A stretch of DNA of 64,000 nucleotides, taken from the NCBI GenBank assembly GCA_016215645.1, contig JACRIX010000021.1:1-64000 (forward strand). The letters are read 5' to 3'. Positions 889 to 2,596 of the stretch are shown here, piece after piece. The stretch is from Rhodocyclales bacterium (GTDB taxonomy: Bacteria; Pseudomonadota; Gammaproteobacteria; Burkholderiales; Rhodocyclaceae). The position numbers were made by a program, and so were the translations under genes. Positions within the stretch are counted from its first letter, which is position 1. Every line of letters begins with the position of its first letter. The notes under the pieces are model-generated. The model was not told the origin of the DNA and ran no database searches. It saw only the letters and a list, made by a program, of their open reading frames with translations.

Positions 889-1128
889 GTGGATACCATC
901 AAATCACTTGCCAAGTTTCGTGTGCCGATCGGCAACCAGGCGATCGAACTCCAGGAGTTCGTCTATGAGGCCGGCGGCATGCCCATGTTGCGCACGCGTA
1001 TTCGCGAAGGCAGCCGCTTCACCATTTTCGACATCGATCCGGTGACCGCCGCGCAATGGGGCAAGGCGCTCAGCGATTGGGCGGCGACCCAGTCGGGTAC
1101 GGCCGTCGGTTCCGGGAGCGGCGAGTGA
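889..1128 (+). CDS. Small conserved protein (DUF6967-like, from memory), first gene of the operon divergent from dsrA
   Basis: GTG start at 889 (alternative ATG at 841); VDTIKSLAKFRVPIGNQAIELQEFVYEAGGMPMLRTRIREGSRFTIFDIDPVTAAQWGKAL...; stop overlaps the next gene start. Confidence 0.6.
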   Translation: MDTIKSLAKFRVPIGNQAIELQEFVYEAGGMPMLRTRIREGSRFTIFDIDPVTAAQWGKALSDWAATQSGTAVGSGSGE

Positions 1129-1751
1129 ACGGCTGGCCGGTGGATGCGTCTGCGGAAATGGTCGATGTCGTCTTCGAACTCGATGCCGGCACGATCGCCA
1201 CTGATCACACCGAAGCGCTTGCCCGCGCCTTGCGCCGGGCCTTGCCCTGGCTGGACGACGAACCGCTCGCCGGCATCCTGCCGCTGTCTGGCCTGGGGCG
1301 TGGCGATGGTCTCAGCTATGTCGGTCGCCGCAGCCGCCTCGTCATCCGCATGCCGATTCACCGTAGCGCCAGCGCCGACGCTTTGAGTGGCAGCGCGCTG
1401 GATCTGGGCGGTGAGCCGCTGGGCGTTGGCCGATCCAGCCTGCGCCCCCTGCTGCCGGTGACCGAGGTCGTGCATTCGTCTTTCGTCAGTTATGACACCG
1501 CCGACGAAATCGAGTTTCTCGCCGCCTGCCGCGCCGAACTGACGGCACGCGGCGTCGGCGGCGAGCCCGTCACCGGACGTGCGCGTCGCATCAAATGCGC
1601 CGCCGGCGAGGTGCATGGTTTCGCGCTGATGCTGCATGGCCTCAAACGCGCCGAATCCGTGGCCATCCAGGAATCCGGTCTGGGCCGGCATCGCCTGCTG
1701 GGCTGCGGGCTGTTCGTACCCCACAAATCCATCGCCGCCGTCGGCGAATAA
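1125..1751 (+). CDS. Cas6/Cmx6-like (type I-MYXAN Cas6 family) RAMP protein, stand-alone
   Basis: VDVVFELDAGTIATDHTEALARALRRALPWLDDEPLAGI... and C-terminal QESGLGRHRLLGCGLFVPHKSI; the latter matches the Cas6 glycine-rich loop GxGxxxxxGxG. Start set at GTG 1125, overlapping the upstream stop. Confidence 0.75.
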   Translation: MNGWPVDASAEMVDVVFELDAGTIATDHTEALARALRRALPWLDDEPLAGILPLSGLGRGDGLSYVGRRSRLVIRMPIHRSASADALSGSALDLGGEPLGVGRSSLRPLLPVTEVVHSSFVSYDTADEIEFLAACRAELTARGVGGEPVTGRARRIKCAAGEVHGFALMLHGLKRAESVAIQESGLGRHRLLGCGLFVPHKSIAAVGE

Positions 1752-1775
1752 ACCATTCCAAGGGAGGACCATCAC

Positions 1776-2258
1776 ATGACAGACAACGCCACCGTCACGC
1801 TGGACACCAGCGGACTGCCTTGCCCGGCGCCCCTGCTCGGCGCCAAGAAGCTGGTCGACGACCTGCAGCCGGGCCAGACGCTGAAGCTGATTTCCGACTG
1901 TCCGGGCACTGCCGACGACCTCTTCGCCTGGTCCAAGTTCACCGGTAACCAGGTGCTGGAAACCCGCAAGCTGCCGGACGGCAAGACCGCCTACATCATC
2001 GAGCGCGCCGGCAGCGCCGCCGCCACGCCGATTCCGCACGTCACGCTCGACATGCGCGGCGTGTCCTGTCCCGGGCCCATCCTCGAGGCCAAGAAGCTGC
2101 TCGGTGGCATGAAGCCCGGCGAGGTGCTGCAACTGGTCAGCGACTGCCCGGGTTCCGCCGACGACATCGCCTCCTGGGCAAAGGCGGGAGCCGCCGAACT
2201 GTTGTTCAGCCATGAGACAGGGCGTGGCATTCACGAATTTTTCTTGAGGAGAAACTAA
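1776..2258 (+). CDS. Tandem TusA-domain sulfurtransferase (TusA-TusA)
   Basis: Two TusA repeats in one ORF: LDTSGLPCPAPLLGAKKLVDDLQPGQTLKLISDCPG and LDMRGVSCPGPILEAKKLLGGMKPGEVLQLVSDCPG, each with CPxP. Confidence 0.9.
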   Translation: MTDNATVTLDTSGLPCPAPLLGAKKLVDDLQPGQTLKLISDCPGTADDLFAWSKFTGNQVLETRKLPDGKTAYIIERAGSAAATPIPHVTLDMRGVSCPGPILEAKKLLGGMKPGEVLQLVSDCPGSADDIASWAKAGAAELLFSHETGRGIHEFFLRRN

Positions 2259-2596
2259 TGGGATACACCATCAACGGCGTAGAAAAGGATACCGACGACG
2301 ACGGCTACCTGCTGGAAGCCGACCTCAGCGAGGAGGCGGTGCAGGCCATCGCTGCCGAACAGGGGCTCGCGCTGACCGACGACCACCTTGCCATCATCAA
2401 TTTTCTGCGCGCCAAGTACCAGGAAGACGGGCATACCCCCAACCTGCGCAACATGATGAAGATGCTTGAGGAAGAAGCGGTGATTGCCGACGTCTCCAGC
2501 GCGCGCCTGTTCGAGCTGTTTCCGGACGGTGGCGCCGCCAAGCAGGGCGTCAAGGTTGCCGGCCTGACCAAGCCTTTCGGCAAAGGCGGGTACTAG
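2258..2596 (+). CDS. DsrC/TusE-family protein lacking the C-terminal cysteines (RspA-type)
   Basis: MGYTINGVEKDTDDDGYLLEADLSEEAVQAIAAEQGLALTDDHLAIINFLRAKYQEDGHTPNLRNMMKML...LFELFPDGGAAKQGVKVAGLTKPFGKGGY; DsrC fold signature, but both canonical Cys positions are replaced. Confidence 0.87.
   Translation: MGYTINGVEKDTDDDGYLLEADLSEEAVQAIAAEQGLALTDDHLAIINFLRAKYQEDGHTPNLRNMMKMLEEEAVIADVSSARLFELFPDGGAAKQGVKVAGLTKPFGKGGY

Follow-up and report, generated by a model that had tools for sequence, protein, structure and literature searches.

The locus and its Cas6-fold protein

Near the start of the window, by which we mean the whole 64-kb stretch of DNA that was analysed, a cas6 gene lies in a module that is read away from dsrA, and the following features were assigned.

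1..707, minus strand: 5' part of dsrA (dissimilatory sulfite reductase alpha subunit), truncated at the contig end (TIGR02064, 320 bits)
708..888, no strand: divergent promoter region common to dsrA and the Cas6 module (181-bp gap)
803..816, no strand: palindrome of the TACCC-N4-GGGTA type (TACCCTAAAGGGTT), a candidate operator by its recurrence in dsrA/DUF6967 gaps
889..1128, plus strand: DUF6967 small protein (PF22295, E 1.7e-30), overlapping cas6 by 4 nt
1125..1751, plus strand: cas6, a Cas6-fold protein (PF09559 / TIGR02807) of a non-CRISPR sulfur clade (profiles, model, tree)
1206..1208, plus strand: codon of His28, a candidate catalytic residue common to type I-MYXAN CRISPR Cas6 (alignment)
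1677..1709, plus strand: glycine-rich loop GLGRHRLLGCG (GxGxxxxxGxG), with Gly193 and Gly195 invariant in 81 sequences
1776..2258, plus strand: TusA-TusA fusion (two TusA matches, PF01206, E 1.3e-35; both Cys-Pro motifs)
2258..2596, plus strand: DsrC-family protein without cysteine, C-terminus KGGY (PF04358, E 9.9e-27)
2713..3318, plus strand: ORF5, a conserved 201-aa protein of unknown family, within 7 kb of cas6 in 49/80 loci
3311..4210, plus strand: TauD/TfdA-like Fe(II)/2-oxoglutarate oxygenase (PF02668, E 4.2e-16), in 61/80 and 62/80 loci

The initial annotation described a cas6 unit diverging from dsrA and accompanied by a small protein, a TusA-TusA protein and a DsrC paralogue. dsrA, on the minus strand, starts at 707, which leaves 181 bp between the two units and bears out the divergence; all three neighbours were confirmed by profile matches. 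The dsrA score refers to the window fragment, and the remainder of the gene lies on contig C14. Both TusA domains of the fusion carry the Cys-Pro-x-Pro carrier motif (CPAP and CPGP), and ORF5 matched no Pfam or NCBIfam family.

The cas6 ORF starts with GTG, and its product had been proposed to be Cmx6-like with an exact Cas6-type glycine loop. Both profiles agree with this over the full length of the protein, with 165 bits (E 2e-48) against a cut-off of 26.7 for PF09559 and 137.2 bits against a curated cut-off of 98.85 for TIGR02807 (cas6_cmx6), and the loop is found at residues 185-195. When the AF2 model (pLDDT 91.7) was searched with Foldseek, the best matches were Cas6 structures (TM 0.86 to 8fcj), and the protein has the tandem ferredoxin-like (RAMP) fold. 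This is the single PF09559 match in the window's own genome. Its closest named homologues are from Sulfuritalea and Rhodocyclales, and other named members occur in Thiohalobacter, Thiogranum, Sedimenticola, Thiomargarita and others. The gene is conserved in the genus and under purifying selection (median dN/dS-like ratio 0.25, with likewise low values for the neighbours).

Using 81 Cas6 sequences of the sulfur clade, we found a near-invariant glycine loop and highly conserved residues at Arg75 (81/81), Arg69 (80/81), and Gly193 and Gly195 (81/81 each). Position 28 is His in 71 of the 81, Tyr in 8 and Asn in 2, and the same His is present in 3/3 plasmid-borne cyanobacterial Cas6 proteins. Position 52 is His in 67/81 and in the Cas6 of a CRISPR-associated transposon (CAST) and Leu in the window protein, and five of the 81 sequences have neither candidate histidine. 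The window Cas6 retains the glycine loop, Arg69, Arg75 and His28. Because a profile comparison with Pyrococcus furiosus Cas6 gave an alignment confined to the glycine loop, the assignment of catalytic residues is tentative. Conserved motifs that are lineage-specific lie outside the loop, for example GNGW in the main gammaproteobacterial clade and a C-terminal PHK. The basic charge typical of CRISPR Cas6 is gone from the sulfur proteins: the pI is 6.2 for the window Cas6 and 6.5-7.1 as clade median (about 6-7), compared with 9.2 for the CAST Cas6 and 9.3-9.5 for the three cyanobacterial ones.

Linkage to dsr across genomes

Gene order was compared in 29 fetched relatives and in a set of 160 loci that partly overlaps them (80 by genome sample and 80 named). 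At 29/29 fetched loci from other genomes, Cas6 adjoins TusA-TusA, the DsrC-like protein or ORF5, and DUF6967 lies upstream in 28, the remaining locus being cut by a contig end. Together with most of the 160 loci, this rules out chance adjacency of Cas6 and dsr, and the neighbourhood tally suggested in the initial annotation finds the homologues linked mainly to dsr and not to CRISPR-Cas loci. Neither of the outcomes that the annotation named as refuting, a lack of Cas6/RAMP structural similarity or homologues mainly in complete CRISPR-Cas loci, was thus obtained. Across about 165 genome loci, Cas6 occurs in one dsr-linked gene set or, rarely, alone, with no cas neighbour found. In the main layout, dsrA diverges from TauD, C7, (C17), Cas6, DsrC-like and C13; in the window-type layout it diverges from DUF6967, Cas6, (TusA-TusA), DsrC-like, ORF5 and TauD. 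DUF6967 stands upstream of cas6 in nearly all loci of the latter type, and TusA-TusA was found in 10/80 loci of the first set. ORF5 and the TauD-like oxygenase are members of the dsr-linked module. C7 and DUF6967 cannot be treated as one family (profile comparison probability <1%, and genomes of another class carry the two next to each other); C7 gave a confident structure model and no match among solved structures.

The set is reduced to the C7-Cas6 pair in Parabeggiatoa, Marithrix and Thiomargarita, and Cas6 lies away from it in 5/80 loci of the first set, with an RlmB-like methylase, a YedE-like sulfur transporter, ObgE or RNase III nearby and no Cas protein among the nine neighbours scanned. 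The placement of relocated Cas6 by RNase III, by an RlmB-like rRNA methylase or near ObgE (L120, L122, L079 and L119) may be chance. A dsr/Cas6 contig (L165), probably mis-binned, was also seen in a 'Halobacteria archaeon' assembly.

Co-occurrence was tabulated in the window's class, taken as Gammaproteobacteria in the broad sense including Burkholderiales. PF09559 was present in 121/387 class genomes, of which 115 also had dsrA and 6 did not; 8 genomes had dsrA only and 258 neither (phi 0.92). A sample of relatives gave a similar picture, with PF09559 in 48/121 genomes (46 with dsrA, 2 without, 3 with dsrA only, 70 with neither; phi 0.91). When cas1 was used in place of dsrA in these relatives, the association was weak (25 with both, 23 with Cas6 only, 28 with cas1 only, 45 with neither; phi 0.14, p 0.19). 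Because the genomes in these tables are not independent of each other, the conclusions lean on the size of the effect and not on p. In the class, dsrA lies at a contig end in at least five of the eight genomes that have dsrA only. A clean absence of Cas6 was seen in one relative (L224 9013-9857, genome G033), where DUF6967 is directly followed by TusA-TusA. Cas6 distances correlate with those of dsrA (Mantel r 0.53) and of the DsrC-like neighbour (r 0.61), both above every permutation, which suggests that Cas6 is a largely vertically inherited accessory of the dsr locus.

The linkage also has limits. In a phylum sample, 50 genomes exceeded the dsrA cut-off, 3 in the window's class and 47 outside, and PF09559 was found in 4 genomes, all of the window's class. 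Four loci of another class (L243, L245, L246 and L247) have TauD, C7 and DUF6967 beside dsrA with neither Cas6 nor a cysteine-less DsrC, so the module is wider than Cas6; most simply, Cas6 would have joined this module in one lineage. A siroheme-synthase-like ORF follows in three of the four. The loss of cas6 at L224 and the dsr genomes of other classes without Cas6 together indicate that Cas6 is dispensable for dsr in general.

Two further elements of the module may bear on regulation. Within the genus, the 181-bp dsrA/DUF6967 gap keeps both its length and its sequence, and most DUF6967-type loci have in this gap a copy of the TACCC-N4-GGGTA palindrome with a variable 4-nt centre. The palindrome is limited to these loci, with no enrichment in other gammaproteobacterial ones, and is a candidate operator for both divergent units; an RNA element was also considered, and the fixed arms with a variable centre read better as a DNA operator. 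The second element is the DsrC-like neighbour, a member of the DsrC/TusE family by profile (TIGR03342). Family members carry a penultimate cysteine and canonical DsrC ends in CV or CI, whereas the window protein has zero cysteines. It ends in KGGY, as do 152/162 DsrC-like neighbours of Cas6, and presumably fits the cysteine-less RspA-type group, which has been proposed as regulatory. A regulatory role for the cysteine-less paralogue is also thinkable from Allochromatium vinosum, in which DsrC binds DNA upstream of dsr, as stated in a genome paper (PMC5944118). The initial annotation took the TusA and DsrC neighbours for sulfur carriers, and this fails for the DsrC paralogue, for which a DsrC/TusE-type carrier function is ruled out by the lack of the carrier cysteine. 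The idea that Cas6 links sulfur-carrier status to RNA is not supported either, given this lack and the presence of TusA-TusA in only part of the window-type loci.

Independence from CRISPR-Cas

The earlier statement that the window holds no CRISPR array and no other cas gene stands. The repeat scan found no CRISPR-like repeats and Rfam gave no match in the 64 kb, and PADLOC models run on 58 of its ORFs detected no CRISPR-specific cas gene among the best 25 of 38 families. Among these, six Cas6 models all match ORF 1125..1751, and the other matches listed, to Cas3-type and further helicase models, are consistent with helicases encoded in the window, a DbpA-like RNA helicase being one. No cas1 match was found in the window's own genome, the assembly of which is 80% complete. 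When type I-MYXAN queries were used, cas3, cas8, cas7, cas5 and cas4-cas1 were found at 0/254 loci and cas6 at 234/254; as a positive control, 2/3 cyanobacterial plasmid members sit in cas operons. Two repeat-scan signals at other loci were discarded, one being a short tandem repeat of 54 bp that lies some 7 kb away from cas6 (L119), and the other a low-complexity coding repeat at a locus with no cas6 (L250).

In the class, 35/76 Cas6-positive genomes lack cas1; they include every one of the five genomes of 1.0-1.1 Mb and several that consist of a single contig. In trees, the sulfur Cas6s form a clade separated from the CRISPR/CAST members by a 100/100 branch, with an outgroup that beyond CAST consists of cyanobacterial members only, one of them (L256) without cas neighbours. 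Viral contigs and plasmids gave no match to the sulfur-type Cas6. The L256 protein (6971-7762, Gloeobacter morelensis plasmid pGMOR1) is a PF09559 Cas6 without annotated cas neighbours and represents a second context that does not look like CRISPR; it adjoins genes of the PAPS-reductase and cupin families, and a cytosine methyltransferase is encoded close by.

Possible role and relation to known systems

The proposal of a stand-alone, exapted Cas6 is thus upheld by a conserved gene under purifying selection that is tied to dsr and not to CRISPR-Cas, which suggests that Cas6 was recruited long ago for a job in sulfur metabolism. We propose, with a probability of roughly 50%, that the domesticated Cas6 serves dsr-dependent sulfur oxidation as an accessory that would bind RNA and perhaps cut it. 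A Cas6-fold protein would have left CRISPR-Cas and become a fixed accessory of the dsr locus in Gammaproteobacteria. It could bind a specific RNA through the glycine loop and the conserved arginines and possibly cut it, with His28 as candidate catalyst. It may act together with the DsrC paralogue that lacks cysteine and with a translationally coupled small protein, which is DUF6967 here and the unrelated C7 in other lineages; the outcome may be a post-transcriptional tuning of the expression of dsr or other sulfur genes. The retention of the RNA-site residues Arg75, Arg69, Gly193 and Gly195 counts for such a role; the neutral-to-acidic protein, the sequences with neither histidine, the loss at L224, the dsr genomes of other classes that do not have Cas6 and the missing RNA target count against it. 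A hairpin search of dsr spacers found no RNA target of the sulfur Cas6. Strong hairpins occur in the dsrA-dsrB and dsrB-dsrE spacers of more than half of the loci (L063-L222); they differ from one species to the next and several Cas6-positive genomes have none, and we do not claim them as its substrate.

The charge loss and the missing histidines can also be read differently, namely that the protein retained the Cas6 fold as a scaffold and binds protein, not RNA. It could then, for instance, help to assemble or deliver sulfur-oxidation enzymes, and its possible partners are the small coupled protein, the DsrC-like neighbour or a protein of the Dsr or Tus type. The motifs outside the loop (GNGW and C-terminal PHK) and the stable neighbours, all of which are dsr/Tus-type or unknown proteins, would suit this alternative. 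However, conservation is highest at the glycine loop and Arg69/Arg75, and net charge says little about whether a protein binds a specific RNA; we regard the scaffold as possible though rather unlikely and prefer the RNA-binding accessory. A role in RNA sulfur modification, in which Cas6 presents or recognises tRNA for a TusA/TusE-like 2-thiouridine branch, is suggested by the adjoining TusA-TusA and DsrC/TusE-family proteins in the window, but it is improbable since the latter has no carrier cysteine, TusA-TusA is found in few loci and the module shows no enzyme of tRNA modification. Family name, fold and the presence of some cas1 in about half of Cas6-positive genomes could recall crRNA processing for arrays elsewhere in the genome, which is hardly credible given the missing cas1 correlation and cas neighbours, the lack of cas1 in the 80% complete genome, the retention of Cas6 in genomes of about 1 Mb without cas1 and the 100/100 split from plasmid-borne cyanobacterial and CAST members.

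For the RNA-binding accessory, the wider meaning is that a clade annotated as 'CRISPR Cas6' in sulfur oxidisers is probably a domesticated RNA-binding or RNA-cutting factor outside CRISPR, acting in dsr control or assembly. To our knowledge, few Cas proteins have lasting jobs outside immunity, and in a large sampling of sulfur-oxidising Gammaproteobacteria, some with genomes of about 1 Mb, this Cas6 lineage and dsrA match almost one to one. Databases label the protein as CRISPR, and the case cautions against reading a Cas6 annotation by itself as evidence of CRISPR. The clade offers a testable candidate for a missing factor in dsr-dependent sulfur oxidation, and the uncharacterised neighbours DUF6967, C7, C17, C13, ORF5 and the TauD-like oxygenase come along with it. 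Our literature search, which covered few subscription journals, found no paper on a dsr-bound, CRISPR-free Cas6 clade; the protein family itself was already known.

Compared with known systems, the nearest solved structure is the Cas6 of a type I-B CRISPR-associated transposon (PDB 8fcj), with 27% identity to the window protein; it belongs to a Cascade complex and has Asn at position 28, His at 52 and a pI of about 9.2. Pyrococcus furiosus Cas6 (3pkm/3i4h) and PH0350 (3qjj) are Cas6 structures too, at TM 0.63-0.70 and 11-13% identity, and their RNA substrates are CRISPR-type. The type I-MYXAN Cas6/Cmx6 (TIGR02807, PF09559), for example that of Synechocystis PCC 6714 pSYLB (L255), has the family, fold, glycine loop, Arg75 and His28 in common with the window Cas6. 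It stands in cas6-cas3-cas8-cas7-cas5-cas4/cas1 loci, has a pI of 9.4-9.5 and forms a separate clade, whereas the sulfur Cas6 is near-neutral, has Arg69 and a PHK motif at its C-terminus, and belongs to a dsr-linked set.
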